Shown here: positions 37,064-60,992 of the stretch, piece after piece
Layout of the letters: each line of letters opens with the position of its first letter
How positions within the stretch are numbered: the first letter of the stretch is position 1
Source: Fulvivirga sp.
GTDB taxonomy: Bacteria; Bacteroidota; Bacteroidia; Cytophagales; Cyclobacteriaceae
Assembly (NCBI GenBank): GCA_028280565.1
Contig: JANQLQ010000253.1
Location: forward strand, 1 to 63,642
Length of the DNA stretch: 63,642 bases
Reading direction: 5' to 3'
Program-made: the position numbers and the translations under genes
The notes under the pieces: generated by a model
What the model was told of the DNA's origin: nothing
The model's database searches: none
Seen by the model: only the letters and a program-made list of their open reading frames with translations

Positions 37064-37693
37064 AAAGAAACCCATTTCTGTAGTTGACTAGAAGATATAT
37101 CGGTGGTAAGTTCACGGTACATATCCGGCATCATCCAGTATACGAGCCGGGTATTTAAATAATTTGAATACGTAAGTAAAATGAGTTTTAGGTTTGATAA
37201 AATGTAGTAAATAGCGTCCTGCGCACCGAACATGCCTTTTACTTTTCTTGTAAGATTTTTTATTTTTCAACCTTATTCTTTACTAAAAACGCCCTCTAAC
37301 CGCCGCATTCATGGTTTCTCCCTTTAAACGCCATTTATAAACTACTGGTTCTAAAAAAATTACTGCTGGGGAAGGTTACCTTGGTGCAGGTCTTTCACAT
37401 ATATACACGTGTAAGAAATTTAGGCTTTTTTAACTTTTTCAGAAGTTACCTCGAGAGATTAAAGAAGATTAAATATAAATTAATGTTTATTTAATTTCAT
37501 TTTGTTTGACTAATTCGAAAAAGATAACAAACTTGCAGATCGGATTTGTTCGAATATTTGTGTAATATTAAATATTCATTGTTTATAAATATGGTTGGCT
37601 CACGTTGACGATAGGGATTATGTTGGCTTAAATATCCCTCATCTTCATCTCAGGCCTTCTTTTCAATTTTTTTTGAACATTAAAACCAAAAAA
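37064..37693. other. 630-bp AT-rich leader region of the glycan cluster
   Basis: No gene is present. A candidate promoter lies at 37533-37560 and leaves a 5' leader of roughly 125 nt before the response regulator ATG. The upstream part (37064-37530) is AT-rich and shows no repeat from families A-D, unlike most gaps of this size in the window. Confidence 0.45.
37533..37560 (+). promoter_or_regulatory. Candidate promoter of the 37.7-57.4 kb cluster
   Basis: TTG (37533-37535), 17-bp spacer and AATATTTG (37553-37560), which departs from TAnnTTTG at its first base. Confidence 0.45.
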
Positions 37694-38089
37694 ATGAAAA
37701 AAAGAGTCTTGGTTATAGATGATGACTATCCTATAAGACTTCTTATCCAGAAAGTTCTTGAGAAAGACTATGCGATCCATGCTTTCAATAATGTGGCGAA
37801 GGCAGTGGATCACATGAATGCACATGGAAATCCGGATGTGATCGTTACGGATATTAAATTACCGGTCATTGATGGGAAAGATTTCCTGAGAAATTTAAAG
37901 ACCAGCGCTATGTACAGCGATATCCCCGTTGTGATCATATCTTCGTGGGCAGATGGTCAAACGCAATTAGAGTGTGAGCAAGCTGGGGCAGATGCGTACA
38001 TCAATAAACCTTTCAATCCTGAGAAATTGGTTAAGATCATTGACCAATTAGTTAAAAAAGTAGATAATCAGAACTTCCTGATGGGCTAA
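37694..38089 (+). CDS. Single-domain response regulator (receiver only)
   Basis: The 131-residue receiver domain is complete: acidic pair in VLVIDDDYPIR, phospho-acceptor Asp in VIVTDIKLPVIDG, the Ser/Thr in VVIISSWADG and the Lys in ADAYINKPFNPEKL. No output domain is attached. I start at ATG 37694 (MKKRVLVIDDD), because the 33 residues before it are not receiver sequence. It is the first gene of the cluster, 4 bp before a gene with a fused, degenerate receiver, which suggests that phospho-signalling acts on glycan synthesis. Its kinase is not in the cluster. Confidence 0.9.
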   Translation: MKKRVLVIDDDYPIRLLIQKVLEKDYAIHAFNNVAKAVDHMNAHGNPDVIVTDIKLPVIDGKDFLRNLKTSAMYSDIPVVIISSWADGQTQLECEQAGADAYINKPFNPEKLVKIIDQLVKKVDNQNFLMG

Positions 38090-38093
38090 TTTT

Positions 38094-39242
38094 ATGACTT
38101 CATTAAAACAAGAACCTAGCATGGTGAATTTTGAAGGAGTAGATTTTGGAGATATAAAATTTACCACTTTCGGACACAGCTCGGCAGAAGTCGACGTGTT
38201 ATTTATAGGAAACAGCCATTGTGCAAGAGAAGAAGACCTGCACAGGCACTTCAGATGCTCTCAAATTGGGAGATTAGAGGAAGCTATCTCGTGGATACTT
38301 TCTCAAAAACAGGATGGCAGGAGTATACCCAAGGTGATCGTCTGCGATACGGAAATCAACGGGCGACCTAGCTTTGGGGCAATAGAAGAATTAAAATCCA
38401 ACCCGGATTTTGAAAACATAAAGATCATCTTCTTATCGGAAAATACAAGCCAGCCGGAAATGAAAGCGGCCATAGAAACCGGTGCGGATGATTACTTTGC
38501 CAATGACATTCTTTGTCAAGATCTTTTAATGAGGATCAACTTCCTCATCAAACTCGTAGAGCTTAAAACAAATGAATATGAAGAACCTATACCTATTAAT
38601 GAATCCTTAAAGCCTAAATTCTGGAGGTTAAAACGATTTTTCGATATAGCGGTGTCTTTTATGTCCCTGCTCATTGCCAGTCCGCTTTTGACCTTGATCG
38701 CCATTGCCATAAAATTGGATTCAAAAGGGCCGGTTTTCTACATTTCAAAACGAGCCGGCAAAGGGTACCAGATCTTCGATTTTTATAAGTTCCGTACGAT
38801 GAAGAAAGATGCAGATTCACAAGTTGATCAGCTCAAGCATCTTAACCAGTATGACGGGGCTAACGGCGAGTCAGATTCTGTCTTCTTTAAAGTAAAAAAT
38901 GACCCTAGGATCACAAGGTTAGGTAGTTTCCTAAGAAAAACCAGCCTAGACGAGATCCCCCAGTTATTCAATGTCTTGAAAGGCGATATGTCCTTAGTAG
39001 GCAACCGGCCATTGCCTTTATACGAGGCAGAAAAGCTAACACAAGACCAATGGGCTATGCGCTTCTTAGCTCCTGCTGGAATTACAGGGTTATGGCAGAT
39101 CACAAAAAGAGGTAAAGAAGATATGTCTGAGTCCGAAAGGGTATCTTTGGACATGGAATATGCAGAGAAAAACTCTTTTTGGTATGATGTAAAGATCATG
39201 CTCAAGACACCATCAGCGCTTCTTCAAAAAGAACAAGTATGA
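38094..39242 (+). CDS. Sugar-1-phosphate transferase fused to a degenerate receiver domain
   Basis: The 382-residue protein has two parts. Residues about 15-160 fold-match a receiver: VIVCDTEINGRPS carries the acceptor-like Asp, IIFLSENT the Thr/Ser strand, and GADDYFANDI the last turn, but the acidic pair is replaced (VLFIGNSHC) and the conserved Lys is missing. Residues about 175-382 are a polyprenyl-phosphate glycosyl-1-phosphate transferase: RFFDIAVSFMSLLIASPLL membrane helix, then FYKFRTMKKDAD, TRLGSFLRKTSLDEIPQLFN, KGDMSLVGNRPLP and PAGITGLWQITKRG. The transferase starts a lipid-linked glycan at the inner membrane. The fused pseudo-receiver is unusual and may control it by protein contact. 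Confidence 0.88.
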   Translation: MTSLKQEPSMVNFEGVDFGDIKFTTFGHSSAEVDVLFIGNSHCAREEDLHRHFRCSQIGRLEEAISWILSQKQDGRSIPKVIVCDTEINGRPSFGAIEELKSNPDFENIKIIFLSENTSQPEMKAAIETGADDYFANDILCQDLLMRINFLIKLVELKTNEYEEPIPINESLKPKFWRLKRFFDIAVSFMSLLIASPLLTLIAIAIKLDSKGPVFYISKRAGKGYQIFDFYKFRTMKKDADSQVDQLKHLNQYDGANGESDSVFFKVKNDPRITRLGSFLRKTSLDEIPQLFNVLKGDMSLVGNRPLPLYEAEKLTQDQWAMRFLAPAGITGLWQITKRGKEDMSESERVSLDMEYAEKNSFWYDVKIMLKTPSALLQKEQV

Positions 39243-39246
39243 TGAT

Positions 39247-40446
39247 ATGTGGCTTCAGCTTATCAATGTCCTGCTTGTCTCGCTGGCAACTTTCTTATTG
39301 ACTTTCCATTTTGTACTTTTATTATTTTCATTTGCGTTTAGAAAGAAAAAGTTCGGACCCACGGGGCAGCAGGTAGAAAAATCATTGGCCTGTGTTATAA
39401 CGGCCTATAAAGACTTGTCCCCTGCCCTGCCCTTGATCCAGTCGATCTTGGACAACGGCTACAAGAACTTTCGTATCTATTGTGTGGCGGATCGTTGCGA
39501 ACAGCTTAACGTCACCCCTAAAGACGAACGCCTCTCTGTCCTCTACCCGGAAAAGGGGCTCAACTCGAAGGTAAAATCCATGCTCTACGCCGTGGAGCAT
39601 TTCAAAGGCGATCACGACGCGGTGATCATCTTTGACCCGGATAACTTGGTGAAGCCTGGCTACCTCGAATGTATGAACAGGTACCTGCATCGATTCGGGG
39701 CGGTCCAAGGCGAACGCATTGCAAAGAACTTGGACTCCAATATCTCCGGGCTAGATGCTTTAGGAGAACTCTACCACAATTACCTGGAGCGGTATGTCCC
39801 GTTTTTACTAGGTTCTTCAAGTACGATAGCAGGTTCCGGGATGGCCATCGAAACCCGTGCGTTTCGATCGTTCTTGGCCAGTGAAGAGGTAAAAGAAAAG
39901 ATCGACGGCGTAATCTTGGGAGAAGACAAGATGTTACAGAGTCATCTTGTAGGCAATGGCATAAGAATTGCCTACAACAAGGAAGCTAAAATTTACGATG
40001 AGAAGCTGGTGGATCGTACGCAGGTAGCCAACCAGCGCTCAAGATGGGTCATGGCTTATATAAAAAATCTAAAGGATGCCTTCAGAATATTTGGCAAAGG
40101 ACTGGCAAGGTTTAATTGGAACCAGGTCTTCTTTGGTATTACCACCATCTATCCTCCCTTGTTCACCGTAGTCCTCTTTTCAGGATTATGCGCCCTGTAT
40201 TTGGTAGTAGTAGACTGGCCGCTTGCCATCATAGTAGCATTCGGTATGTTTTTATTTGCATCCGTATTCTTTTTGGTACTGATTTTGGAGAAGGCCCCGA
40301 AAAGTATTTGGTTAAGCATACTAAGTTCACCCCTTTTCATATTAGGACAAGTAAAAGGAGTTTTACAATTCCGTAAGACGAAAAACGATTTTTTGGTCAC
40401 AAAAAAATCAAAGGTTGTGACCCTTGAAAAGCTTAAAAATGAATAA
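39247..40446 (+). CDS. Membrane-bound family 2 glycosyltransferase (processive-like)
   Basis: The 399-residue protein has an N-terminal helix (about 5-28), a GT-A catalytic domain with CVITAYKDLSPALPLIQSIL, the metal motif FDPDNLV, GSGMAIE, GEDK, and QRSRW (about 258-262), then two C-terminal helices (about 304-345). The ED plus QxxRW set is shared with processive synthases and polymerising GT2 enzymes. It works at the inner membrane on the cytosolic side. It starts 4 bp after the fused transferase and overlaps the next glycosyltransferase, so it is co-translated. The sugar donor is unknown. Confidence 0.88.
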   Translation: MWLQLINVLLVSLATFLLTFHFVLLLFSFAFRKKKFGPTGQQVEKSLACVITAYKDLSPALPLIQSILDNGYKNFRIYCVADRCEQLNVTPKDERLSVLYPEKGLNSKVKSMLYAVEHFKGDHDAVIIFDPDNLVKPGYLECMNRYLHRFGAVQGERIAKNLDSNISGLDALGELYHNYLERYVPFLLGSSSTIAGSGMAIETRAFRSFLASEEVKEKIDGVILGEDKMLQSHLVGNGIRIAYNKEAKIYDEKLVDRTQVANQRSRWVMAYIKNLKDAFRIFGKGLARFNWNQVFFGITTIYPPLFTVVLFSGLCALYLVVVDWPLAIIVAFGMFLFASVFFLVLILEKAPKSIWLSILSSPLFILGQVKGVLQFRKTKNDFLVTKKSKVVTLEKLKNE

Positions 40447-41338
40447 CGCGTCTAATTCCGTTTCTCTTATTACTGTAAACTTCAACCAGGCCGAGGCTAC
40501 AGTGGAATTGCTCAAATCCCTTGAGGAGCATGGCTATTTGGAGCAAATGGAAGTGATAGTAGTGGATAACAATTCTAAGGTCAGCCCCAAAGAGCAGATC
40601 AATAAGATCTACCCATCCGTTAAAGTCATAGAGAGTGATGTTAATTTGGGGTTTGCTGGAGGAAATAACTTGGGCATCCAACACGCTACCATGCCCTACT
40701 TGTTATTCATTAACAACGACACGGAAGTCACCGAAAACTTCTTAGAGCCTTTGGTAGAGAAGCTCCAAGACCCAGGCATAGGGCTGGTGAGCCCGAAGAT
40801 CAAGTACTGGAATACGAATATCATTCAATATGCGGGATTTACCCAGATCCATCCTGTAACGGGTAGAAACCGGCTAATCGGTGAAAAAGAAGAGGACCAG
40901 GGGCAATTTGATTCGGGAAGAAAAACCGCCTATGCCCATGGAGCAGCTATGATCATGAGAACTGCCGACTTGGCCAAAGTGGATCCCATGCCAGAAGACT
41001 ATTTCTTGTACTATGAAGAGATGGACTGGTGCGAGCGATTTAAACGAGCCGGGCTCGACATTTATTATGAGCCGCGTAGTGTTATCTATCATAAAGAATC
41101 GTTGAGCACGGGTCAACTCAGTAATCTAAAACATTTTTACCTAACACGTAATCGGATCCTTTTCATGAAAAGGAATTTCAAAGGGATACGATTCATTGTG
41201 TTTATTCTCTACTTCTCAACCGTAGTTTTTATTAAGAACATCCTACAAGGGGTGGCTAAACTACAATGGTCAAAGATCAGTACATTTTACAAAGGCGTAT
41301 TAAGTTCCTTCGGGTTCAAATTCAATAGGGCCTATTAG
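40439..41338 (+). CDS. Family 2 glycosyltransferase, rhamnosyltransferase-like
   Basis: The 299-residue protein begins with the GT2 fold (VSLITVNFNQAEATVELLKS), then VIVVDNNSKVS, LGFAGGNNLGIQHA and the metal motif FINNDTEV. YEEMDWCERFKRAGLDIYY and YHKESLSTG are conserved in the rhamnosyltransferase-like group. A hydrophobic segment near residue 250 (IRFIVFILYFSTVVFIKNIL) may touch the membrane. I start at ATG 40439, inside the last codons of the previous gene, rather than at the TTG 15 bp upstream. The product extends a lipid-linked glycan begun by the fused transferase. Confidence 0.88.
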   Translation: MNNASNSVSLITVNFNQAEATVELLKSLEEHGYLEQMEVIVVDNNSKVSPKEQINKIYPSVKVIESDVNLGFAGGNNLGIQHATMPYLLFINNDTEVTENFLEPLVEKLQDPGIGLVSPKIKYWNTNIIQYAGFTQIHPVTGRNRLIGEKEEDQGQFDSGRKTAYAHGAAMIMRTADLAKVDPMPEDYFLYYEEMDWCERFKRAGLDIYYEPRSVIYHKESLSTGQLSNLKHFYLTRNRILFMKRNFKGIRFIVFILYFSTVVFIKNILQGVAKLQWSKISTFYKGVLSSFGFKFNRAY

Positions 41339-41339
41339 A

Positions 41340-43043
41340 ATGATATCATTATCCACGATAGGGCGTCTTTTGCTGTGTATGTGCTTTTTGGGGTTCAAAA
41401 GTACGCATGCCCAATTATTGGAGAAACGCACACCATCAGGGAAGGGGTATTATATCAACCTGCCGGTGGGTTACGACCAAAGTGCTGGTAAGAAACATCC
41501 TGTAATCGTTTTCCTTCATGGTATCGGCCAAAAAGGTAACGGCTCTAACCTATCCTTGAAAAAACTTCTCCTCAATGGCCCGCTGACCCAACTCGATGAA
41601 GATCTCAGCTTATGCGTTCAAAATGAAGGCAGACGGGAATGCTTTATCATTATCAGCCCGCAGTTACCCTCTAAGTACAGGTCTTGGCTTGATGATTACG
41701 TTTATAGCTTTTTAGACGAAGTCATGAATGACGGTAATCTCCGGTACGATAAAGATCGCGTCTATCTAACCGGTTACAGCCTAGGAGGCAACGGGGTATA
41801 TAAAGTGCTGGGTTCGGATAAAAATATCCCCAATCGCTGGGCCGCGGCGGCACCGGTGGCGGCCTGGGGGAACAGGAAAAATGCTTGTAAGATCGCATCC
41901 GCAGGAGCATCTACATGGGCCTTCCATGGCGAGCAAGACCGCACCGTCACCTTTGCATCCGGTAAAAATATGCACTTGGCAGTAGATCAATGCTCCCAGG
42001 TGGAAAACAAGTTTACAGCCTTGAAAAACGTGGGACATGACTCGTGGAAGAATGCGTACAAAGTCAAAAACCCCGCGAGCCAAAATCTTTACAAATGGTT
42101 CTTAAGCAATAAGCTGGGCGAGGCCCGGGAAAAAACTACGCGGTCTGAACCTGCTCCTACCCCCGAAAAAGAAAAGGAAGTAAGTATTGAAAAACTAGCA
42201 CTCGCAGGGATCAGTGCCTTTAACGAAACCACGGAAGGGACAAATTTCTATAAGATCACCGATCTGCCATCGGTGTTAAAAGAAGTGTCAGGCATACAAG
42301 CCGATAGCGGAGGAGTATGGGCACATAATGATAGTGGAAACCTCCCCTTTCTCTTCAAAATAAGCCCTACCGGGGAAATCCTGTATAAAATAAAAATTAG
42401 TGGCGCTTCTAACGTGGATTGGGAAGATATGACTGCCGATGATCAAGGAAACCTGTACATAGCCGATGTTGGCAATAATAGCAACAAGCGTAGAAGGTTC
42501 ATCATTTATAAAATAGATATACGGAATGTGACCCGTTCTACCTTGAAACTACCCTCTCAACGGATCATTTTTACACTCCCCGATCAGCAGGCTTTCCCAC
42601 CGGACAACAAGCATTTGAATTTTGATTTTGAAGCATTAAGCTGGAAAGACAATAGCTTGTATCTTTTTTCAAAAAATAGGACGAAACCATTCAATGGAGT
42701 GGTAAAAATGTATCGCATCCCCACAGAAGAAGGTGAGCACCAAGCAGAACTCCTAGATAGTCTTTCATTAGGCACTGACGGAATGCTGAATCACTGGATT
42801 ACCGGCGCCGACATAAGCCCGGATGGGCAGACACTAGCCCTGCTCTCGTCAGACCGTGTATTTTTATTTGCAGGTTTTGATGGAAAACGTCTAGATCCTG
42901 GTAGTCTAAAAGTAATCCCCCTAAATCATTTCTCCCAAAAAGAAGCAATTACATTTTTAAATAAAGATACATTATACATAGCAGATGAAAATGTTAAGGG
43001 TCTGTTAAGCAATACATTATATAGTTTGAATATTGAAGATTGA
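41340..43043 (+). CDS. Secreted esterase with a beta-propeller-like C-terminal half
   Basis: The 567-residue protein has a signal peptide (ends STHAQ, residue 25). Residues 26-260 are an alpha/beta hydrolase: oxyanion region VIVFLHGIGQKGNGSN, nucleophile GYSLGG (Ser148), acid in HGEQD (Asp200) and His233 in VGHDSW. After a Pro/Glu linker, residues about 285-567 show repeated strands (GVWAHNDSGNLPFLFKISPT, DDQGNLYIADVGNNSNKRR, DGQTLALLSSDRVFLFAG) like a beta-propeller. No T9SS sorting domain is seen, so it is probably periplasmic. Its N-terminal domain is a clear paralogue of the next gene's. It starts 1 bp after the glycosyltransferase stop. Substrate may be acyl groups on the glycan; this is inference. 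Confidence 0.83.
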   Translation: MISLSTIGRLLLCMCFLGFKSTHAQLLEKRTPSGKGYYINLPVGYDQSAGKKHPVIVFLHGIGQKGNGSNLSLKKLLLNGPLTQLDEDLSLCVQNEGRRECFIIISPQLPSKYRSWLDDYVYSFLDEVMNDGNLRYDKDRVYLTGYSLGGNGVYKVLGSDKNIPNRWAAAAPVAAWGNRKNACKIASAGASTWAFHGEQDRTVTFASGKNMHLAVDQCSQVENKFTALKNVGHDSWKNAYKVKNPASQNLYKWFLSNKLGEAREKTTRSEPAPTPEKEKEVSIEKLALAGISAFNETTEGTNFYKITDLPSVLKEVSGIQADSGGVWAHNDSGNLPFLFKISPTGEILYKIKISGASNVDWEDMTADDQGNLYIADVGNNSNKRRRFIIYKIDIRNVTRSTLKLPSQRIIFTLPDQQAFPPDNKHLNFDFEALSWKDNSLYLFSKNRTKPFNGVVKMYRIPTEEGEHQAELLDSLSLGTDGMLNHWITGADISPDGQTLALLSSDRVFLFAGFDGKRLDPGSLKVIPLNHFSQKEAITFLNKDTLYIADENVKGLLSNTLYSLNIED

Positions 43044-43089
43044 TTTTTACCTTTATAGGTTGTGTCGATAGTGGCTGGTCACCAAATTC

Positions 43090-46000
43090 ATGTTTATGAA
43101 AAAGCTAGCAATGCGTCATCTTCTCCCCCTTTTGTTGTCGGCTATTGCTCCTATTTTTACGTACGGCCAATTCCAAAACAGGACCACATCTACCGGTGTG
43201 GGTTACTTAGAGTACCTTCCCCCAGGGTATGATGCCAACCCCACCAAGCAATATCCCATAATGATCTTTCTTCATGGCCAAGGAGAGCGAGGAAATGGAT
43301 CTCCGGCGGCCTTGGAAAGAGTCAAAAAGAATGGCCCTCCCAAAGAGATCGTCAACGGGCACGACATGTGCTTTACTGTGAATGGAGAAGAAGAATGCTT
43401 TATCGTGGTGGCCCCACAGCTGTCCTCTTCCAATAATTCGTGGTATGGTTCACTGGTCCATAACATCATAGATAAGATCCTGAATAGCTCACAAAATTAC
43501 CGTTTTGATCCTGATAGGGTTTACCTCACAGGCCTCAGTCTAGGTGGAAATGGTGTATGGGAAGGGGGGTATGCTTCTCAGAATTCAAACAACATGTTTG
43601 CTGCCATTGCACCCGTGGCGGCATGGGGAAAGACTAGGCTCGGTTGTGACGTATCAGCCAGGAAAATACCCGTTTGGGCCTTTCACGGGGATAGGGATAA
43701 TACTGTAACCTATAATTCGGGATTAGGGATGTTCAACTCGGTGGCGAATTGTACTACTCCTGCTCCCACGGCAGAATTGATCTTCACTACTTATGAAGGG
43801 GTAGGACATAATTCCTGGTCGCGCGCTTATCGCACAGATAACAACTTGCATACCCCAAACTTATACGAATGGCTACTTTCCAAAAAATTAAACAGTGGAG
43901 GGCCTACGGCAAATGCAGGGCCGGATCAAAACATTACTTTACCTACAAATAGTATAACCTTGAACGGCTCGGGTACTGATGACGGCTCCATCGTCGCCTA
44001 CAGATGGTCTAAACTAGCAGGGCCTGCAGCCACGTTAACCAATTCCACGACAGCTAACTTGACAGCTAGCGCCTTGGTAGAAGGTACTTATACCTTTCAG
44101 CTTACCGTCAGGGACAATGACGGCAATACAGCTTCAGACCAGGTCACGGTGATCGTAAGCCCCGCAGTTGTAAATCAGCCTCCTACGGTAAATGCAGGCA
44201 CTACGATCACAATCACTTTACCTACAAGTAGTACGAATATCATTGGTACCGCCAGTGACGTAGACGGGACCATAGCCACTTATGCCTGGACCGAAAGAAG
44301 TGGCCCTGCCACAGCCACGTTGACTGGAAATAACACCGCCACCTTAACGGCTTCGGCACTGGTAGAAGGCACCTACATTTTCCGGTTGACCGTAACGGAC
44401 GACGATGGCGCTTCGGCATTCGATGAAGTGAATGTAGTCGTAAACCCGGCAGTAGTAAATAGCCCTCCTACGGCGAATGCCGGTGCGGACCAATTGATCA
44501 ACCTGCCGACTAACAGCACCACGTTAAGTGGTTCAGGAGCTGATTCGGACGGCAGTATTGATACGTATTTATGGGAAAAAATAAGCGGTCCTACCGCCAC
44601 CCTTACCAACCAGAATACCCCTACCCTACAAGTAAACAACCTTATCGAAGGAATTTATACTTTCCGCCTAACGGTTACAGACAACAGCGGTGACTCGGAC
44701 AGTGATGATGTGGTGGTAACCGTACTGGCTATTAATCAAAATCCAACCGCAAATGCGGGTAGTGATATCACCATTACGCTCCCCACTAATTCCACTACGT
44801 TGACAGGTTCCGGTACAGATCCCGATGGCTCCATTTTCGGCTATCTTTGGGAACAGGTATCCGGGCCATCACCTGCCAATATCATCAATGCAACTTCACC
44901 CACTACCGTGGTGAACACGCTATCAGCGGGCACCTATATATTGCGATTAACGGTAACTGACGATGTCGGGGCACAAGACACGGATGTGGTCAACATTACT
45001 GTCCTCAACGCCCCGGTAAATGAACGCCCAACGGTATCGGCAGGAAGCGACCAATCGGTAACTCTTCCGGTTAACTCCGTGGTTTTTAACGGCACTGCCA
45101 ACGATCCGGACGGGACGATTGCTACTTATGCGTGGAGTAAGATAACAGGCCCTGGTACATTTACAGTAAGCGGGGAGAACACCAGCACCTTAACGGTTAG
45201 CGACTTGGTAGCTGGAAACTATACTTTTCGTCTCACGGTGACAGATAATGACGGGGCTCAAGCCTCAGATCTAGTGGAAGTGAACGTAGCCCCGGAAATA
45301 GTGAACCAGGCCCCTACAGCGAATGCAGGGCCTGACCGCGTGGTGAATCTACCGTCAGCCGGTATCGTATTGAACGGGTCAGCCACGGACAATGACGGAA
45401 CTGTCGTGTCTTATGCTTGGACCAAGGTAAGCGGACCGACGATCACACAGGGTAATCAAAACACTGCGTCGCTATCCCTTTCAGATCTTGTCGCCGGCAA
45501 CTATGTTTTCCGGTTAGAAGTAACTGATGATGACGGGGCCACGGATACGGATGAGGCCCGGGTGCGTGTAAATGCTACCAACCAACCTCCTACAGCTTCT
45601 GCCGGGCCGGATATATCGCTCACTTTACCTACCAATGCCGTAGACATTACGGGTGTATCTTCTGATAGCGACGGTACTGTAGTCTCTGTAGAATGGCAGC
45701 AGGTCGGGGGCACGATCAATAGTAACGTAAGTACCTTAAGCCTGTCAGGATTGACGGAGGGAACTTATACTTTCCGCTTTACAGCCACTGATGATGACGG
45801 GGCTTCCGCCAGTGATGAGGTAGACGTTTTTGTCATTGCTTTAAATCAGTTCCCAACAGTCAACGCAGGACCAGACAGGACCATCACCTTACCGGTAAAC
45901 AGTGTAAATATAACCGCTAACGCTAATGACCCGGACGGAACGATTGCAAGTTACGAGTGGGAAGATGTAAGCGGTCCTACAGCCACAATTTTGAATTCGA

Positions 46001-49833: not shown

Positions 49834-49950
49834 AACTAGTCATACTAATGTAAGATTGGTAACCGTATTAACTTGTTTTAATCCGGCATTATAGGAATAT
49901 TTAAACAGAATTTAATATTGATTACCGAGATTCATTCGAAAATAATTAGG

Positions 49951-49958
49951 TACCTTTG
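49951..49958 (+). promoter_or_regulatory. -7 box (TACCTTTG) before the third esterase gene
   Basis: Exact TAnnTTTG match in the 154-bp gap, the largest within the cluster. The -33 site is unclear. It suggests a second promoter for 50015-57357. Confidence 0.45.
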
Positions 49959-50014
49959 AGGTTACCTATGTAAGGTTTGAGGTATTAATGCATAAAATTC
50001 ATCCAGTTGGCACC

Positions 50015-53000
50015 ATGAAAACAACCTTTACACACTATTTTAGGGGCTTACTAATCTTGTTAATGGCAATGTTAGTAACACAGGGCTATTCCCAGTTTGG
50101 AATATCTCCTGGTACAGTAAGTTATCGTTTGGACGATGAGGGGAATGATATTTCTGACGAATTGGTTATGGGACGCTATTATGGTTACCCGACCGGAACC
50201 ATGACGAGGAATTATGATACTCGGCAATTCAAAGAATTCAGCATGTTCTATGACCAAAGTTTTCCCTACACATTTGAGCAGCTCAGTCACGGCGATACAT
50301 TGAATGAACCTTGGAAGTTCAAAAATAACTTTCGTTTGTTGTATCCCGTAGATTTTGACAGCACGGCATATTACAGTGAAGGGCAGACACAAAAGTATCC
50401 CTTGATTATTTTCATGCATGGAGTTGGCGAAAGGGCGAATTGCAGGGGCAATAATTGCTATGGCGTGGACGATCCCAGGTATAATAATAATGACCATAGC
50501 CTAGTACATGGAGAAGATAAATTTATCCCTGCCGTGAATCGCCCGCCATCAGATCCACGACATTGGCCGGGTTTTGTCTTGGTAATACAAAATCTGAATG
50601 GCTGGAAACCTTCTAGCAATTTGAATGCTTCATCAGCAGATACCTACAGGGCCGCTGAGTTTTTGAAAGTACTTCCTGATTATTATCCTATTGATATAAA
50701 TCGTATATACGCAAACGGACTATCCAATGGCGCCGAGGCCGCATGGACGTTAATCAATGGAGCCCCTGAACTCATAGCAGCACTTGTAGCATTTTCAGGA
50801 CATACCGGGCATACATTTCTGAGCGGAACAGATAGGCCGGCATTTGAAGAATCTATGATCCATATTCCTGTATGGCAAATTCAAGGTGGACGGGATAACA
50901 AACCCTCTCCTAGTTCAACGGAAACAAAGTTAAACTTATTACGCAATGCAGGTGGTACCCCGAGGTATACTTTGTATGAAACGGCAGCACACCCTACTTG
51001 GAACAGGGGATGGAATGAACCAGACTTTTTTTCTTGGCTTCTGCAATATTCTAAACTAACCATCCACAGTTACTATGGTGTCAATGAAGTGTGTGAAGGA
51101 GATGACATTAATGTACGTTTAGGTATATCTCCCAATTTTGACGATTACCAATGGGGATATATTAATTCTGCTAACGATACTACCTTAGTGGACGGAATAG
51201 TGGGCAAGCCAAACGAATTGATCGCGGACCAAGTGGGCTCCTATATTGTTAAATTTGCAAGAGGGACAGAATGGACTCAATGGTCCGATCCTTTTACTAT
51301 TACCATCAAATCCAGGAGTGATGCTTCCATAGTTGCTAATGGTCCTACGGCCTTCCCTGGCTTAGATGGGTCAACTACTGTAGAGTTAGAGGCAACGAAT
51401 AAAGAAGGATTGTACTACGAATGGTTCAAAGATGGTGTTCCATTCGCAGAGGATTCTACTCTATTTTCAATCGATGTATCAGAATCTGGGTATTACACTG
51501 CCGTCATCAGGGACCAAGGGCTTTGCGAAAGCTTTGAATCCAACCGTGTATATGTTTCTAATGAGCCGTTTGCAGGTACACTTCCGGCAGCTCCTTCTAA
51601 CTTATTTGCCGATGTGAATTCTCCCAATAGCTTGTTGATATACTGGCAGGACGAATCTGATTCTGAGCTAGGTTTCGAGATCTACAGGAGCGAAGATGGC
51701 GTCAATTACACATGGATCCACACTACGGCCCAAGATGTATTGATGTATGTAGATACTGCACTGAATAGTAATGTCACCTACTACTACAAGGTGAGGGCAT
51801 ACAACGCTAACGGTGCATCAACAGCTTCTAATACTGCCTTAGCTACTACTACAACAGATACCGAAGCGCCTTCAACCGTGCAAAATTTCACCTTTGAAAG
51901 ATTTGGATACACGGAATATAGAGAAAACATTACAGGTGACCTGGCAGATGAACATTTTGAAATAAACCTAGATAAAGCAGTTTTCTCATGGAGTCCTGCT
52001 TCGGATAATGTAGGTGTAACCAGTTATGAAGTTTATTTCTCCAATGGCACTCTAGCGGGAACCACTGCCGATACGGAAATAACTATCCCAGGCCTTACTC
52101 AAGATCAAGTATATAGTTTTTACGTCGTAGCTAAAGATGCAGAAGGAAATACAAGCTCACCAGGTAATAACGTATCCGTTAGAACCCAATTCGATGGCTT
52201 ATATTTTAAATTACATACAGAAGGAACATGGGATTTCATACGTGATTATTCTACTTGGCCGATAGAAGCCTTTGGCAATACATCTACTTTTGACCTTAGT
52301 ATTAGGGAGGAGTTCACAGATGACACTGACTACTTCGCCTTTGATTTCTTTGGGTATCTTTATATTGAAAATGCCGGGGATTACACTTTTTATACCTCTT
52401 CGGATGACGGTAGCCGGTTGTGGATAGGTTCTGATATGGTGGTGGACAACGACGGTCAACATGGTATGCAAGAGCGATCGGGAACGCGTACTTTAAGCCC
52501 AGGTATTTATCCAATTACGGTCAATTATTTTGAAAGAACAGGTGGACAAGGCCTGAACGTACGCTACTCCGGCCCGAGTATCTCTAAAACTAGTATCCCG
52601 ACATCTGCGCTCACTACTAATCCTAACCCGGTACCTTCTAACTTGCCTGTGGCGCCGACTAACTTGGTGGCAACAGCAGATGGTATTTCTTTCGAGGTAG
52701 GATTAACATGGGATTACGACCCGATCGACATCGTAGTCTTAGGGTCATCAACGGCGGAAGGATTCGGCCTGACCGGTTCCGAAAAGAGCTGGGTTGAAAA
52801 ACTGGATAGTGCCTTAACGGCGCAGGGAGCCAGCTATAATCTTACTAATCTTGCCAAGGGTGGTTTTACTACCTACCACGTAAGAGAAGATGGGAGCCCG
52901 AACGGTGGTATTAGCGGTGCGCCGGATACCCAACGAAATATAACACACGCCTTGACGTTTAACCCGGACATCATCATTGTCAATTTGCCTTCTAATAATG

Positions 53001-54448
53001 TAGCACGCAATATTGATGTCCCTACCACGATCAGTCATTACGATGAACTCAAGAGCTTAGCCGAGGCAAACGGTGCCGAAATATTCTTCACCACGAGCCA
53101 GCCTAGGAATTTTGGGAGTGACCAGGCCAAAAGAGACCTGCTAGAGCAAGAAGCGATCGCCGTAAGGGCAAACTTTGGTCAATATGTCATTGATATCTAC
53201 GATTCGCTAACCGATTTTTCAAACGGCAAGAGGATCAAAGCCGTGTTCAACCTAGGAGACGGAACCCATTTAACTGAACTCGGACACCAGTACATCTTTT
53301 ACGAAGCGTGGAAACAGGTGAGTCCTCACATGCCACGTATGGAGGTTTACAGTTCTCTTAACGGTACAGATTTTGACATTGTACACACTACCAATATTGG
53401 CGAAACCTCTTTTAGTCACCAAGATCTTCAGCCCAGCACCAACTATTCTTTCAGAGTAAGGGCCACGAATATTTTTGGGAATTCTGATTTCTCGAATACA
53501 AGCAGTGCCACGACAATAGACGACGTTATTGCGCCTAGCGTTCCTCAAAATTTGACGGTCAGGGCAAAAACCGCGAACAAGGTAGCCTTATCTTGGGATC
53601 CGTCAACGGATAACGTAGGAGTGCTTCAATACATCATTACCTATGATGTTAGTGGAGGTGGTGCCGGTTCGAGGAGCGCGAGCAGCGGAAGCAGGGTAGC
53701 TTCTACGGCAAGAACTCTTTCCGTGGCGGCCCAGTCCAATGAAAACGGGATCACTATTGAAGGGCTACAGCCGGAAACGGGTTACGAGTTTGCAGTGGCT
53801 GCGATAGATGCCTCTGCCAATAACTCGGGCAATAGTGCGCCCATTGTCGCACAAACGCTATCAGACTCGCCTCTACCGGTAGAATTCCTTGGTTTCTCGT
53901 ATGAAATTGAGAACAACGAGGTGATCCTCAAATGGAGTACTGCCTCGGAGATCAATAATAGCCACTTTACGGTTGAACGTTCCGAGCAGATCGATGCACT
54001 AACAGCCATTGGGGAAGTGGAAGGCGCTGGAAACTCTGCTTCTTTACTGAATTACACCTTTAGGGATGAAAACCCCGGAGCTGTGAATTACTACAGGATC
54101 AAGCAGACCGATTTTGATGGTAAATTTGATTATTCAGAGGTGATCAGGGTAGTGGTGGAGAGAGATCTTTTTGCGGAGTTGGCCGTTTATCCTAACCCGG
54201 CATCTCCGGCAAATATCAACTTGAAAGGTTTCGTTCCTACAGATCAAAGCTTGATCAGGATCAACTTTATCGACTTGGCAGGCAAAAGCCATGTATTGCT
54301 GGAAACTGATCCTAACAGCTTGATTGAAGGTATCAACTTAGATATGAGTCGCCAGTTGAGACCCGGGGTTTATTTTGTGACCATTAGTGACGGGCTTAAC
54401 ATTTCGCAAAAGAAATTAATTATAGAAGCAAATGCCGGAAAGCTATGA
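50015..54448 (+). CDS. Multidomain secreted esterase: alpha/beta hydrolase, FN3, PA14, SGNH and type A sorting domain
   Basis: The 1477-residue protein (start at ATG 50015; an ATG 27 bp earlier is possible) has a signal peptide ending GYSQ. Residues about 100-345 are an alpha/beta hydrolase with FMHGVGERAN, GLSNGA (Ser237), GGRDN (Asp294) and His326. FN3 domains follow (about 530-620 and 630-725), then PA14 (about 725-862, YFKLHTEGTWDF). A further FN3 (from about 880) is interrupted by an SGNH hydrolase (about 903-1105): VVLGSSTAEGFG, LAKGGFTT, VNLPSNNVARN and GDGTHLTELGH. A last FN3 and a type A T9SS sorting domain (LAVYPNPASPANINLKGF to the end) close it. Two separate esterase folds in one surface protein point to deacylation of a complex glycan. 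It overlaps the GMC gene by 17 bp. Confidence 0.87.
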   Translation: MKTTFTHYFRGLLILLMAMLVTQGYSQFGISPGTVSYRLDDEGNDISDELVMGRYYGYPTGTMTRNYDTRQFKEFSMFYDQSFPYTFEQLSHGDTLNEPWKFKNNFRLLYPVDFDSTAYYSEGQTQKYPLIIFMHGVGERANCRGNNCYGVDDPRYNNNDHSLVHGEDKFIPAVNRPPSDPRHWPGFVLVIQNLNGWKPSSNLNASSADTYRAAEFLKVLPDYYPIDINRIYANGLSNGAEAAWTLINGAPELIAALVAFSGHTGHTFLSGTDRPAFEESMIHIPVWQIQGGRDNKPSPSSTETKLNLLRNAGGTPRYTLYETAAHPTWNRGWNEPDFFSWLLQYSKLTIHSYYGVNEVCEGDDINVRLGISPNFDDYQWGYINSANDTTLVDGIVGKPNELIADQVGSYIVKFARGTEWTQWSDPFTITIKSRSDASIVANGPTAFPGLDGSTTVELEATNKEGLYYEWFKDGVPFAEDSTLFSIDVSESGYYTAVIRDQGLCESFESNRVYVSNEPFAGTLPAAPSNLFADVNSPNSLLIYWQDESDSELGFEIYRSEDGVNYTWIHTTAQDVLMYVDTALNSNVTYYYKVRAYNANGASTASNTALATTTTDTEAPSTVQNFTFERFGYTEYRENITGDLADEHFEINLDKAVFSWSPASDNVGVTSYEVYFSNGTLAGTTADTEITIPGLTQDQVYSFYVVAKDAEGNTSSPGNNVSVRTQFDGLYFKLHTEGTWDFIRDYSTWPIEAFGNTSTFDLSIREEFTDDTDYFAFDFFGYLYIENAGDYTFYTSSDDGSRLWIGSDMVVDNDGQHGMQERSGTRTLSPGIYPITVNYFERTGGQGLNVRYSGPSISKTSIPTSALTTNPNPVPSNLPVAPTNLVATADGISFEVGLTWDYDPIDIVVLGSSTAEGFGLTGSEKSWVEKLDSALTAQGASYNLTNLAKGGFTTYHVREDGSPNGGISGAPDTQRNITHALTFNPDIIIVNLPSNNVARNIDVPTTISHYDELKSLAEANGAEIFFTTSQPRNFGSDQAKRDLLEQEAIAVRANFGQYVIDIYDSLTDFSNGKRIKAVFNLGDGTHLTELGHQYIFYEAWKQVSPHMPRMEVYSSLNGTDFDIVHTTNIGETSFSHQDLQPSTNYSFRVRATNIFGNSDFSNTSSATTIDDVIAPSVPQNLTVRAKTANKVALSWDPSTDNVGVLQYIITYDVSGGGAGSRSASSGSRVASTARTLSVAAQSNENGITIEGLQPETGYEFAVAAIDASANNSGNSAPIVAQTLSDSPLPVEFLGFSYEIENNEVILKWSTASEINNSHFTVERSEQIDALTAIGEVEGAGNSASLLNYTFRDENPGAVNYYRIKQTDFDGKFDYSEVIRVVVERDLFAELAVYPNPASPANINLKGFVPTDQSLIRINFIDLAGKSHVLLETDPNSLIEGINLDMSRQLRPGVYFVTISDGLNISQKKLIIEANAGKL

Positions 54449-55859
54449 CCTAGTAGTAGTAGGTACGGGCTTTGCTTCTTCTTTCTTTTTAAAACGGTAC
54501 TTGGAGAATGCGCCAAGCAACCAAAAAGTCTTAGTCTTAGAAAGAGGCGAGATGTTGCCTTACCTGGATCGTTTAAAAGCGAAGCAAGGAACAGGCAACA
54601 TTGATCCCAGGAAGGCAGGTAGTACGTACCAAACCGATTCGGATAAGATTTGGGTTTTTGACCCGAATTTTGGAGGCAGTTCTAATTGCTGGACGGGCTG
54701 TACTCCCCGCTTTCTTCCCAATGATTTCGAGTTAAGATCAAAGTACGGTGTGGGCCAAGACTGGCCTATATCGTATGATGATATTGGTGAGTATTATGAA
54801 GAGGCTGAGCAGATCATGTCGATTGCCGGCCCGGGTACTACACCATTTCCAAAATCTAACGGCTATCCCCTGCCTCCGCATGCTTTAAGTACGGTAGATA
54901 AACTCTTGCAAGAAAAGTATCAAGAGCTATACATTAGTCAACCTACAGCACGAGCCTCCCAGGCCGTAGGGAGCCGTGGAAACTGTTGCTCTAGTTCGGT
55001 GTGTGACCTATGCCCGGTAAATGCAAAATTTACCATAGAAAATGGACTAGGACAACTTTACGATGACGACAGGGTCACCCTGAAATATAATGCACAAGCC
55101 ATAGGGTTAGAAACTGCCAACGACACTGCAAAATCCATCACCTACGTAGAAAATGGAGTCACCCAAAAGGCATTTGGGGAGACATTTGTATTGGGGGCTA
55201 ATGGCGTTTTTAACAGTCATATTTTACTCAACTCCGGTGATACGAATCCCCTGACCGGGGCAGGGATTTGCGAGCAGATCGGCGTGTTTGCCCGGCTATA
55301 CTACAAAGGCTTGTCGAATGTAGGGGGCGGCTCCATTATTACGGCTAACGGGTATATGATGTACGACGGCGAGCACCGCAAAGATCACGCGGCATGTATC
55401 ATTGAAAGCTTTAATACCCCGTTTATACGCAATGAGGTTGGAAAATGGCGCGATATGTCTATCTTCAAATTCATATTTGAAGACATTCCTCAAAACTCCA
55501 ATAAAGTGACGCTGAGCGGCGACGAACGAATCCCTAACATCGCTTATGAATCCTACTCGGATTATGTACAAAAAGGGATGGACCAGTTGCCCTCTTTGAT
55601 CGACCAGTATTTTGGGTTTTTGCCGGTAGAAAAAGTTGAGATCGACGGGTATGCGCAAAAAACGGAGTTCCACATTTGCTCTACGACACGTATGGGTAAT
55701 ACCAGCGAGGATAGCGTGATAGATGCTAACTTAGTGCACCACCAATTTCGTAATGTAATTGTATCAGGGAGCAGCGTGTATCCTTCCATTACACCTGCTA
55801 ACCCAACCTTAACCCTGAGCGCCTTGTCTTTAAGAGCAGCAAATCGATACTTCGGATGA
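54432..55859 (+). CDS. GMC-family flavin oxidoreductase, cysteine-rich insert
   Basis: The 475-residue protein opens with the FAD-binding DLVVVGTGFASSFFLKRYL and has NFGGSSNCWTGCTPRF, and near the end STTRMG and NPTLTLSALSLRAANRY. These are the first and last GMC blocks. A cluster RGNCCSSSVCDLCPVN (about residues 185-200) spaces cysteines as Cx5Cx2C. I recall similar spacing from bacterial FAD-dependent dehydrogenases that carry an iron-sulfur cluster. No signal peptide is present. The next gene encodes a Tat-signal protein overlapping by 4 bp, so the enzyme may be exported as a complex. It probably oxidises an alcohol group on a sugar. Confidence 0.85.
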   Translation: MPESYDLVVVGTGFASSFFLKRYLENAPSNQKVLVLERGEMLPYLDRLKAKQGTGNIDPRKAGSTYQTDSDKIWVFDPNFGGSSNCWTGCTPRFLPNDFELRSKYGVGQDWPISYDDIGEYYEEAEQIMSIAGPGTTPFPKSNGYPLPPHALSTVDKLLQEKYQELYISQPTARASQAVGSRGNCCSSSVCDLCPVNAKFTIENGLGQLYDDDRVTLKYNAQAIGLETANDTAKSITYVENGVTQKAFGETFVLGANGVFNSHILLNSGDTNPLTGAGICEQIGVFARLYYKGLSNVGGGSIITANGYMMYDGEHRKDHAACIIESFNTPFIRNEVGKWRDMSIFKFIFEDIPQNSNKVTLSGDERIPNIAYESYSDYVQKGMDQLPSLIDQYFGFLPVEKVEIDGYAQKTEFHICSTTRMGNTSEDSVIDANLVHHQFRNVIVSGSSVYPSITPANPTLTLSALSLRAANRYFG

Positions 55860-56302
55860 AAAAGATAAGCAGAAGACGGTTTTTAGGGTATTTGGGTATA
55901 GGCTTTGTCGCCGGGATATCCGGGTATGTACTTTACAATGATTTCGAAAGGATCCTCTTCAAAATTCTTAAAAAGGACCTCCACCAACTGTCTTTCGACG
56001 ATTCGTTAATTCACACCTTCATAAAGGATGCCCGGGAAAACCAACATTGGGAGAAAAAGTTTTTCGATTGGAAAAGGCAATACTTTTTGAGGTTCGGCTC
56101 TTTCATGGACAGCATGTCCATACCCTATCCTTATAAGTACAAATACAATCAATATAAGGCGAATATTATCGGTGACTTTTTGTTATCCACTGACTATTTT
56201 ATGAATCAAATGGATAATACAAAACCTTTAAGTTATATCGGCTTGTACAATCCTTACCAAAGGGCTTGTTCCAATCCTTTCTCAAACCTCTACTATCCTT
56301 GA
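55856..56302 (+). CDS. Tat-signal small partner protein of the GMC oxidoreductase
   Basis: The 148-residue protein starts MKKISRRRFLGYLGIGFVAG, a twin-arginine signal (SRRRFLG) with a hydrophobic core. The remainder is rich in Tyr, Lys and Phe and is not a known domain to me. Its length and position beside a signal-less GMC enzyme fit the small subunit/chaperone role seen in gluconate 2-dehydrogenase and FAD-glucose dehydrogenase systems, where the Tat partner carries the catalytic subunit across. Overlaps: ATGA with the previous gene and TTGA with the next. Confidence 0.75.
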   Translation: MKKISRRRFLGYLGIGFVAGISGYVLYNDFERILFKILKKDLHQLSFDDSLIHTFIKDARENQHWEKKFFDWKRQYFLRFGSFMDSMSIPYPYKYKYNQYKANIIGDFLLSTDYFMNQMDNTKPLSYIGLYNPYQRACSNPFSNLYYP

Positions 56303-57357
56303 GTAATAAAAAGAGCGGTTTCCTCAACTACGTTCATATGTTTCGTGGTTTGGCCATCTTGGTGATCGTGGCCATACATTGCCGCATTTCATTTGGCTGG
56401 GGGGACCATCATTTATCACAGCAATTTTTCATTACTTTTCTGGATAACGGCACTGTACTTTTTGTCTTTGTCGCTGGATTTTTGTTCCAATACTTAAAAG
56501 CTAATTATGAATATGCGGATTACCTCCTGCGAAAGGCGAAGTATGTTTTGCTTCCTTACCTAATCGTATCGATCCCCGTGATCGTCTTCAGGAAGTTTAA
56601 CCAGTCTACCGAGGAGTGGTTACCCCTAAGCTTGGCAGACGCCCCATACGTGCTAAAATCAGCTTACATGTTGATCTCGGGGAAGCATTTAGGGCCTTTT
56701 TGGTTCATCCCGATGATAACCATCTTCTACGCTATCTCTCCCCTATTGATAAGACTTGACCATAGAAAGTTCTATACTACCCTTTTTCCTATTGTATTAT
56801 TTGCAGGGCTTTTCACCTTCCAGTTTGGTTATTTTTCGAATATCATATATTCATTTTTGCACTTTTTTCCTGTATACTTATTCGGAATGTGGGCGGCACA
56901 TTACCGGGAACGGCTAACGAATATCAAGTGGACATGGATCATGTTACTGGTTTTGATCTACCTGGTGATCGCTATTTTAGAAATGAGCGGGTATATCCCT
57001 GTTCAAAAGTTAACCTCTTTCGAATCGTCAAAGGTACTCCCCTACTTTCACTTCAATACGGTCAAACTCCGGGTAATGCTCCTTTGTATTATCCTGCTTA
57101 GGGTGCTTTATCATTTCAATTCCCGGAATTTCAAGATACTCGGCACCCTCGGGGATTACAGCTTTGGTATTTATTTCACCCACCTTTACGTGACCACCTT
57201 CATAGAGATGGCCGTAGAACGCGTGGGATTGGATTTTCATCTAAATTGGTATTTGTTCTGCCTCTACATAGCGGTAGTAACATTATCATCCATGCTCATC
57301 GTACTGATCGTCAAAAAAATAGCCGGGAAAAGAAGCAGGTTGATCATAGGAAGTTAA
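56299..57357 (+). CDS. Integral membrane acyltransferase (acyltransferase 3 family)
   Basis: The 352-residue protein has about ten hydrophobic segments. The N-terminus NYVHMFRGLAILVIVAIHCR is the family's R-G-x-A-x-x-x-V-x-x-x-H signature; WFIPMITIFYAISPLL and GDYSFGIYFTHLYV are further blocks. Family members O-acetylate or succinylate sugars on the outer face of the inner membrane. I place the start at TTG 56299, whose last two bases overlap the previous stop (TTGA), giving MSNKKSGFLNYVH. Starting at the next ATG (56338) would cut off conserved residues. As the last gene of the cluster it would add the acyl groups that the esterases could remove. Confidence 0.85.
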   Translation: MSNKKSGFLNYVHMFRGLAILVIVAIHCRISFGWGDHHLSQQFFITFLDNGTVLFVFVAGFLFQYLKANYEYADYLLRKAKYVLLPYLIVSIPVIVFRKFNQSTEEWLPLSLADAPYVLKSAYMLISGKHLGPFWFIPMITIFYAISPLLIRLDHRKFYTTLFPIVLFAGLFTFQFGYFSNIIYSFLHFFPVYLFGMWAAHYRERLTNIKWTWIMLLVLIYLVIAILEMSGYIPVQKLTSFESSKVLPYFHFNTVKLRVMLLCIILLRVLYHFNSRNFKILGTLGDYSFGIYFTHLYVTTFIEMAVERVGLDFHLNWYLFCLYIAVVTLSSMLIVLIVKKIAGKRSRLIIGS

Positions 57358-57358: not shown

Positions 57359-57441
57359 CCCGGATCTAATGCCGTTTCCTTAGTGCGCATCCAGCATAGC
57401 GTAATGCGCACTTATCGTAGCAATAGGATTTGTAATCCGGG
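57359..57441. repeat. Nested cruciform-like structure after the cluster
   Basis: An outer stem CCCGGAT (57359-57365) pairs with ATCCGGG (57435-57441). Inside it AGTGCGCAT (57382-57390) pairs perfectly with ATGCGCACT (57404-57412), and GGATTTGTAATCC forms a small third hairpin at 57427-57439. It begins at the base after the stop codon and may act as a transcript 3' end or mRNA stabiliser. Confidence 0.55.
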
Positions 57442-57535
57442 CATTCTCATTTACGACCGACAGCCATTTTAAGGCCTGGTTAACCTTTGCTGGGAATCCC
57501 CAAAGTAGGTAGAAAACATCTATCACCTCCCTTAG

Positions 57536-57700
57536 TGTTAAGTTAAGCCTCAAATGACGTTTCGAGTACAGGATGAGCTATGTTCGAGGTATTGATCAGT
57601 GGGCAATAGGCAACAGGCAGTGGGCAAAAAAGATAGGGGGTGCCCATTGACCATTGCTAACTACTGGCTGACCGAACGCTTCCCAATACCGCAAGTAAAG
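57536..57700 (+). repeat. Repeat family C, copy 3
   Basis: AAGTTAAGCCTCAAATGACG, GTTCGAGGTATTG, then GTGGGCAATAGGCAACAGGC and GTGGGCAAAA, with a complementary arm GGTGCCCATTGACCATTGC. Closest to copy 1. Confidence 0.75.
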
Positions 57701-57764
57701 CCTATCGCACACCTAAGACGTCATTGGGGATTGACAAGACACTAATATGTTATTGTGCACCATT

Positions 57765-58072: not shown

Positions 58073-58117
58073 TCACCCGTCCTTTTGCAGCTCGCTGGCA
58101 CTAGGCTTTAAAAAATG

Positions 58118-58190
58118 ACCGTCATTCCGGGCCGGTGGCTGTGAGAGGGCTCATAGCGAGAGCCGGAATCTGCTGTATCGTAGAGTGTTG
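58118..58190 (+). repeat. Repeat family A, partial left arm
   Basis: CCGTCATTCCGGGCCGG, then GAGAGCCGGAATCTGCTGTA, then TCGTAGAG. Only the left half is present, next to the full copy 3. Confidence 0.65.
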
Positions 58191-60990: not shown

Positions 60991-60992
60991 GA

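Follow-up and report, generated by a model that had tools for sequence, protein, structure and literature searches.

What does the gene cluster at positions 37694-57357 of Fulvivirga sp. contig JANQLQ010000253.1 make, and what would join its glycan-assembly genes to secreted esterases and a sugar oxidase? The window, that is, the whole stretch of 63,642 nucleotides analysed here, contains 11 co-directional plus-strand genes in this span, as read from open reading frames (ORFs), and a minus-strand block converges on them. With moderate confidence, we regard the cluster (37694-57357), the convergent genes (58344-62863) and another contig of the same genome, C309, as one system for a surface D-pentofuranose glycan, most likely of D-arabinofuranose. 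A preliminary description of the cluster had overlooked the convergent genes at 58344-61865, which alter the reading of which glycan is made. The locus is real, conserved and wider than was described there.

The convergent block encodes, in its own order, a polyprenyl-phosphate phosphoribosyltransferase (DPPR synthase, UbiA family; 60993-61865), a DprE1-like polyprenylphosphoryl-ribose oxidase (59659-60990), a DprE2-like short-chain dehydrogenase/reductase (58928-59662) and a HAD-IB phosphatase (58344-58931), predicted to be a polyprenyl-P-ribose-5-phosphate phosphatase. DPPR synthase scores 226.9 bits with PRK12324 (cut-off 207) and 155.1 bits with the solved decaprenyl-phosphate phosphoribosyltransferase 8j8j; DprE1 matches the structure 4aut with 289.8 bits, DprE2 matches PRK07102 with 338.9 bits (cut-off 267), and the phosphatase, which adjoins DPPR synthase or DprE2 in relatives, matches TIGR01490 with 138 bits (cut-off 98.3). 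In the mycobacterial pathway these four activities convert phosphoribosyl pyrophosphate (PRPP) and polyprenyl phosphate into polyprenyl-phosphoryl-D-arabinofuranose. Judged from sequence, 58344-61865 is predicted to be a route to polyprenyl-phosphate-linked D-arabinofuranose, complete on paper. Upstream of DPPR synthase on the same strand lies a family 2 glycosyltransferase gene, GT2c (61994-62863; Glycos_transf_2, 86.8 bits), whose homologue stands directly upstream of DPPR synthase in genome G055 and after the PorP gene in G017; none occurs in the stretch of G076 examined. In the DprE1 alignment, the cysteine of the mycobacterial 'gwnvcvdfp' motif, which we take to be the residue attacked by covalent benzothiazinones, is an alanine in the window protein; therefore, these compounds may not serve as DprE1 probes here. 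Five loci from outside the Bacteroidota (L128, L131, L135, L152 and L157) carry a protein of 132-147 amino acids (aa) between DPPR synthase and DprE1, a candidate small flippase, and the window donor block has no 132-147 aa protein at that place.

The plus-strand cluster begins with the genes expected to build the chain. A single-domain response regulator (37694-38089; Pfam Response_reg, 88 bits) is followed by a protein designated REC-SPT (38094-39242), in which a degenerate receiver is fused to a polyprenyl-phosphate hexose-1-phosphate transferase of WbaP/WcaJ type (Bac_transf, 211.3 bits; 139.5-144.9 bits with WbaP structures). Its receiver part is weak (26.1 bits, cut-off 30.2) and, in an alignment of nine proteins, is without the acidic pair and lysine that receivers usually have. 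Two glycosyltransferase genes come next: GT2a, for a membrane enzyme (39247-40446; Glyco_tranf_2_3, 92.6 bits), and GT2b (40439-41338, with a possible TTG start at 40424; Glycos_transf_2, 84.5 bits). In relatives, a membrane enzyme whose predicted model resembles glycosyltransferases of the GT-C fold adjoins DPPR synthase. Its one homologue in the window genome lies on contig C309 beside Wzx/Wzy-like genes, the neighbours being Wzx, Wzy_C and a GT4. C309 also carries a MOP flippase, which may serve the main chain instead of the lipid-linked pentose. Furthermore, C309 encodes a sulfotransferase, and two adjacent sulfatase genes lie on the minus strand of the window at 8751-11876, so the glycan might be sulfated.

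Recurrence was assessed in 118 genomes of the window genome's family, the window's own included. Matches were accepted at E<=1e-40 for REC-SPT and DprE1 and at E<=1e-25 for DPPR synthase, and REC-SPT was counted only where the match reached query residue 170 or lower, as in 34 of 62 genomes at that E value. Genome G112 was kept among the 34 as a borderline case at this residue limit; its sugar-transferase match (G112:C38:8569) lies inside a 690-aa open frame, perhaps another fusion. REC-SPT thus occurs in 34 genomes, DprE1 in 32, DPPR synthase in 34, the GMC dehydrogenase in 12 and the esterase domain in 38. The window genome has a single match each for REC-SPT, DprE1 and DPPR synthase. REC-SPT and DprE1 occur together in 29 of the 118 genomes (Fisher p 3.6e-19). 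Kinship was handled by counting genera only: REC-SPT is found in 27 genera and DprE1 in 25, with 22 in common (p 1.6e-12). DprE1 is also present in 11 of the 12 GMC genomes. No such link appears among genomes in which the best transferase match does not cover the receiver part (DprE1 in 2 of 28), a control that does not prove that those 28 proteins have no receiver.

The genes are also close to one another, and the counts are lower bounds because pairs on different contigs of these draft genomes were scored as not near. REC-SPT lies within 40 kb of DPPR synthase in 13 of the 30 genomes with both (random mean 0.50) and within 25 kb of an esterase in 15 of 28 (0.70), while the GMC gene lies within 40 kb of DPPR synthase in 8 of 11 (0.15). 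Nearness of DPPR synthase to an esterase was observed 10 times against a random mean of 0.63, computed for 27 of 28 genomes, G090 being excluded for a missing size entry. These counts of near pairs, far above random, favour one system. Apart from the window, the surroundings of REC-SPT were examined in 18 of the 34 genomes, picked non-randomly for conspicuous matches. In 17 of these regions the response regulator immediately precedes the transferase gene, GT2b is found in all 18 and a GT2a relative in 14 (on the opposite strand in G103).

Genome G076 (record L091, the metagenome-assembled genome (MAG) Bacteroidia bacterium Co_bin.384) reproduces most of the window. Its order is REC-SPT, GT2a, GT2b, a GT4, the esterase genes est1 and estPKD, PorP-SPOR, the third esterase gene est3, GMC, its twin-arginine partner and the acyltransferase, continuing with HAD, DprE2, DprE1 and DPPR synthase; it has no response regulator, and two membrane proteins are encoded upstream of DPPR synthase. 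Genomes G017 and G055 follow the same plan with DprE1 in place, and G063 and G036 have DPPR synthase, DprE2 and HAD at the locus, their DprE1 lying elsewhere. A GMC protein of the window type is absent from all four. Additional GT4, epimerase and methyltransferase-like genes differ between genomes, as in variable surface-glycan loci. The preliminary description had proposed a joint function including assembly of a lipid-linked glycan. The homologues do co-occur, and the recurrence of much of the gene set in other genera supports both proposals.

Beyond the family, a DPPR profile scan gave at least 406 relatives, of which the best 80 loci were considered. Named loci include Chitinophagaceae, Cyclobacteriaceae, Cesiribacter, Fulvivirga lutimaris, Prevotella, Saprospiraceae and some non-Bacteroidota. 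Among these 80, a DPPR ORF is found in 78, HAD in 54, DprE1 in 37, DprE2 in 36, a GT-C homologue in 19 and an esterase catalytic domain in seven, five of the seven being records of Chitinophagaceae type (two of their genera presumably belong there). In a phylum sample of 247 genomes, DprE1 occurs in 52, REC-SPT (E<=1e-55) in 9 and both in 6 (p 0.003); in a class sample of 385, DPPR synthase occurs in 66, the esterase in 13 and both in 7 (p 0.002). Therefore, the donor pathway occurs widely, whereas the full composite is found mainly in the window genome's family. On a deltaproteobacterial MAG contig (L165), genes for DPPR synthase, DprE1 and DprE2 share a stretch of at most 12 kb with a gene whose product is 46% like REC-SPT. 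The GT-C protein of L100, labelled 'uncultured Bacteroides sp.', is 98% identical to that of G074, and the label of L100 may be wrong.

The middle of the cluster encodes three secreted esterases and a candidate surface anchor, with families assigned by Pfam and NCBIfam models, as throughout. Est1 (41340-43043) is a secreted alpha/beta-hydrolase esterase with a C-terminal SdiA-regulated-like domain and shows no type IX secretion system (T9SS) signal at E<=0.001. EstPKD (43090-48372) joins an esterase, whose nearest solved structure is 4q82 (128.7 bits), to a K319L-like PKD array and a type B T9SS signal, CHU_C (91.2 bits), at the C-terminus (residues 1677-1758 of 1760). Est3 (49988-54448) combines an esterase, PA14, an SGNH hydrolase, fn3 and the type A signal Por_Secre_tail, and its relatives lie in the cluster in several genomes. 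T9SS surface display, which the preliminary description had also proposed, is supported by the recurrence of the gene set in other genera. By the motif rules for esterases and SGNH hydrolases, the GxSxG, Asp and His motifs are intact in all three esterases, as are the SGNH blocks of est3. An esterase catalytic domain is present in 15 of the 18 REC-SPT regions examined.

Straight after the end of estPKD (48372) begins a gene for a PorP/SprF barrel fused to SPOR (48373-49833; 165.6 and 28.9 bits, both above cut-off). A PorP relative adjoins an estPKD relative in 10 of the 18 regions, 8 of the 10 with the esterase domain; in G074 and G075 the estPKD relatives beside PorP show PKD repeats only. 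Among the matches listed, those reaching the protein end (the SPOR side) occur in several family genomes. SPOR is a peptidoglycan-binding type of domain. According to the accessible part of PMC9143113, PorP-like proteins bind type B cargo, and PorE is suggested to tie PorP to peptidoglycan. By analogy, the PorP-SPOR protein could both hold its cargo and bind peptidoglycan.

The last three genes encode a GMC dehydrogenase (54432-55859; compared with structures 8hdd, 6a2u and 7w2j), a 148-aa partner with the twin-arginine motif SRRRFLG (55856-56302) and an acyltransferase 3 (AT3) membrane protein (56266-57357; Acyl_transf_3, 118.6 bits). The GMC protein carries a CCx4CxxC motif of Fe-S type, invariant in 12 of 12 aligned relatives, and its closest matches are the Fe-S dehydrogenases for glucose (131 bits) and fructose (113 bits). 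Its four cysteines align with those of 8hdd, the final spacing being one residue shorter, and we assume that they are ligands of a 3Fe-4S cluster. Inspection by eye found no signal peptide on the GMC protein. The small partner adjoins it in all 12 GMC genomes, that of the window among them. Searches of Pfam and NCBIfam found no family for this partner, its model (predicted local distance difference test, pLDDT, 81.9) gave no convincing structural match, and the nearest named proteins are from Fulvivirga. In the glucose and fructose dehydrogenases, the pair is exported folded through the twin-arginine translocation (Tat) pathway and oxidises sugar in the periplasm. By analogy, the small partner likely exports the GMC protein by hitch-hiking, and the pair would oxidise a periplasmic sugar hydroxyl. 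No match to a cytochrome c family was found in the 11 genes of the cluster, the part of the genome searched for it.

In G017 (joined records L072/L073, 18839-21175), the genes for PorP and est3 flank one for a GMC protein that is only 23% identical to that of the window; its neighbour is a Gluconate_2-dh3 protein that starts with a twin-arginine-like motif. Another dehydrogenase pair in the corresponding position is as expected if glycan oxidation belongs to the function, in this one case. Elsewhere, GMC-Tat pairs adjoin membrane proteins at L069:7079-8539, L066:11237-12715, L067:7649-9124 and L057:18348-19409, one a weak MauE and one a weak HTTM match (both below cut-off), and two without a Pfam match; they are possible electron-transfer or anchor partners, and the window pair has no such neighbour.

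The 11 genes are tightly packed. The successive junctions measure 4, 4, -8, 1, 46, 0, 154, -17, -4 and -37 bp, so that 8 of 10 are overlaps or gaps of no more than 5 bp; the two wider gaps precede estPKD (46 bp) and est3 (154 bp). The third junction is -8 bp with the GT2b ATG at 40439 and -23 bp with the TTG at 40424; the last becomes +35 bp, and the tight count 7 of 10, if the acyltransferase starts at the ATG at 56338. The cluster start is the response regulator ATG, which lies inside a longer TTG frame from 37595. Thus the close co-directional packing of the preliminary description holds with 11 genes instead of twelve, and the families named there mostly stand. The sequence does not fix the operon limits because promoter-like sites (34 in 37000-56999; chance mean 36.0, standard deviation 6.2) and terminator-like sites (25; 19.6, 5.0) are near chance level. 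A convergent intergenic stretch of about 1 kb (57360-58340) contains pieces resembling repetitive extragenic palindromes near 'gtcattccgg' and 'ccggaatctgctgt'. Elsewhere in the window, 19956-25722 encodes an RND efflux set of an outer membrane OEP protein, an AcrB-type pump and an HlyD-type adaptor.

The best reading of these data is a Wzx/Wzy-type surface glycan bearing arabinofuranose added outside the cytoplasm, acylated, perhaps oxidised, and served by T9SS-displayed esterases. REC-SPT would load hexose-1-phosphate on undecaprenyl phosphate, and GT2a and GT2b (in relatives also GT4s) would extend the lipid-linked sugar, while DPPR synthase, the HAD phosphatase and DprE1/DprE2 would make polyprenyl-P-D-arabinofuranose from PRPP. 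The Wzx/Wzy-like proteins of C309 may then export and polymerise the chain, and the GT-C enzyme of C309 may add arabinofuranose outside the cytoplasmic membrane. O-acylation of the chain would fall to AT3, and oxidation of a sugar hydroxyl to the Fe-S GMC dehydrogenase exported through Tat. Finally, the T9SS would deliver the esterases, with estPKD held by PorP-SPOR and est3 leaving as type A cargo, and these enzymes might take acyl groups off the glycan of the cell itself or relocate them. The AT3 gene is in keeping with acylation; oxidation by GMC and trimming by the esterases are steps that we infer. The family assignments, a pathway complete on paper, recurrence, linkage and the GT-C-like model of the transferase homologue come from computation, whereas we infer the sugar identity, step order, acceptor, GMC and esterase substrates, membership of C309 and the tie of SPOR to peptidoglycan.

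Several results weigh against this reading. The NCBIfam equivalog models give DprE1 427.7 bits (cut-off 500) and DprE2 199.6 bits (cut-off 250), perhaps because they were built on decaprenyl-using bacteria. The GT-C and Wzx/Wzy genes lie outside the window on another contig, the GT-C model has no Foldseek match at E 0.001 (best 1.2e-3), and no flippase was identified for the lipid-linked pentose. DprE1 is absent from 5 of the 34 REC-SPT genomes and REC-SPT from 3 of the 32 DprE1 genomes, and in 3 of the 18 REC-SPT regions no esterase catalytic domain was seen. Among the 9 esterase genomes outside the family, DPPR synthase occurs in only 3 and is never near the esterase on one contig. The GMC gene occurs in just 12 of 118 genomes and is therefore an optional part. 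The random-placement controls take no account of shared ancestry, and nothing ties the esterases to the cell's own glycan rather than to food polymers.

This last point bears on what the esterases do. They could deacylate plant or algal polysaccharides in a nutrient locus whose glycan genes are neighbours by chance or through shared regulation. Secreted degraders often contain PKD, PA14 and fn3 parts, which are all present in the window esterases, and the structures related to estPKD belong to general carboxylesterases and, with weak scores of 24.0 and 20.6 bits, to carbohydrate and feruloyl esterases. However, no glycoside hydrolase or SusC/D family match was found among the cluster genes, and the linkage of esterases to REC-SPT (15 of 28) far exceeds the 0.70 expected by chance; we consider a nutrient locus quite unlikely. 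The esterases might instead be the main clients of the glycan and not its editors, if it were an anchor for covalent T9SS type A cargo resembling the anionic lipopolysaccharide (A-LPS) to which such cargo is linked in P. gingivalis, as stated in the accessible part of PMC9143113. The type A signal of est3 and the est3 relatives in the cluster of several genomes would suit such an anchor. It is nevertheless unlikely: 10 of the 38 family genomes with esterases have no REC-SPT, no sortase or PorV family match was found among the cluster genes, and 20 PorP-family matches (one partial) in the window genome indicate T9SS traffic far wider than this locus.

Alternatively, the GT-C enzyme could transfer arabinofuranose to secreted proteins in the manner proposed for Pseudomonas pilin, with the repeat-rich esterases as acceptors. 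Ties among GT-C folds leave the acceptor undefined, and the Wzx, Wzy_C and GT4 genes beside GT-C point to a polymer, making protein glycosylation very unlikely. Highly improbable, in our judgement, is a Gram-negative parallel to the mycobacterial envelope in which the T9SS-displayed alpha/beta-hydrolases transacylate terminal arabinofuranose and a GMC-made carbonyl or lactone anchors cargo; glycan, acyl coat and enzymes would then make up a single covalent layer on peptidoglycan via PorP-SPOR. A surface arabinofuranose glycan served by its own esterases remains the preferred reading. It gives a recurrent Bacteroidota gene set a testable role, predicts D-arabinofuranose on a Cytophagales surface, suggests a purpose for secreted esterases of the repeat-rich class and offers an anchor of a single protein in place of the proposed two-protein PorP-PorE anchor. 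It also places DprE1 and arabinosyltransferase biochemistry in a Gram-negative setting and links extracytoplasmic pentofuranose transfer with T9SS surface display, subjects treated apart in the literature found.

Among known systems, the mycobacterial arabinan pathway (Rv3806c, DprE1/E2, AftA and Emb) resembles the proposed system in having relatives of three donor enzymes and a GT-C-like transferase. To our knowledge, the window organism is Gram-negative and has no mycolates. Its phosphatase is of HAD type, whereas the mycobacterial one is of the unrelated Rv3807c type (PMC11127046, accessible part). The FAD-dependent glucose and fructose dehydrogenases share with the window an Fe-S GMC protein with four aligned cysteines and an export signal seen only on the small partner; they differ in a motif ending CxxxC instead of CxxC and in the window partner being of no known family, and for this comparison too the cluster gave no cytochrome c family match.

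Type B cargo paired with PorP/SprF, as in SprB-SprF and PG1035-PorP in the accessible text of PMC9143113, resembles the CHU_C cargo and following PorP-like gene here: CHU_C stands at the C-terminus and a cognate PorP/SprF is adjacent, with binding predicted by analogy. Unlike in those pairs, the window cargo is an esterase, and its PorP has its own SPOR in place of a separate peptidoglycan-binding PorE.

The closest likeness is to the three-component pentofuranose systems defined by Kelly et al. (2024, PMC11127046), in whose accessible text DprE1/E2 homologues are linked to Araf glycans. As in the Citrobacter youngae O1/O2 GT136 systems described there, a polysaccharide locus is accompanied by a synthase for polyprenyl-phosphoribose, a phosphatase of HAD type, an epimerase (DprE1/E2 for Araf) and a GT-C, the one of C309 being judged from the model of a homologue. 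Four of six features of such systems were found by sequence or model: the phosphoribosyltransferase, the HAD phosphatase (co-directional with DPPR synthase, its role predicted from sequence), the DprE1/DprE2 pair (by sequence similarity only) and GT-C. Unlike those systems as far as the accessible text describes them, the window system has HAD and DPPR as separate proteins, has no dedicated flippase identified and is joined to T9SS esterases, PorP-SPOR, REC-SPT and GMC-Tat. The term 'Bacteroid' was not found in the accessible main text of that paper, and the accessible part of PMC5133447, on a Bacteroidetes-derived plastid cluster, seems not to describe the window's system. No paper joining a pentofuranose system with these additions was found in a literature search that covered few subscription journals. 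The earlier statement that no named system has this content therefore holds for the whole set, and not for its core, which has a parallel in PMC11127046, nor for the type B-PorP pairing, which has one in PMC9143113, as far as the accessible parts of both go. The window system is most likely a three-component pentofuranose system extended by T9SS esterases, PorP-SPOR, REC-SPT and sometimes GMC-Tat.

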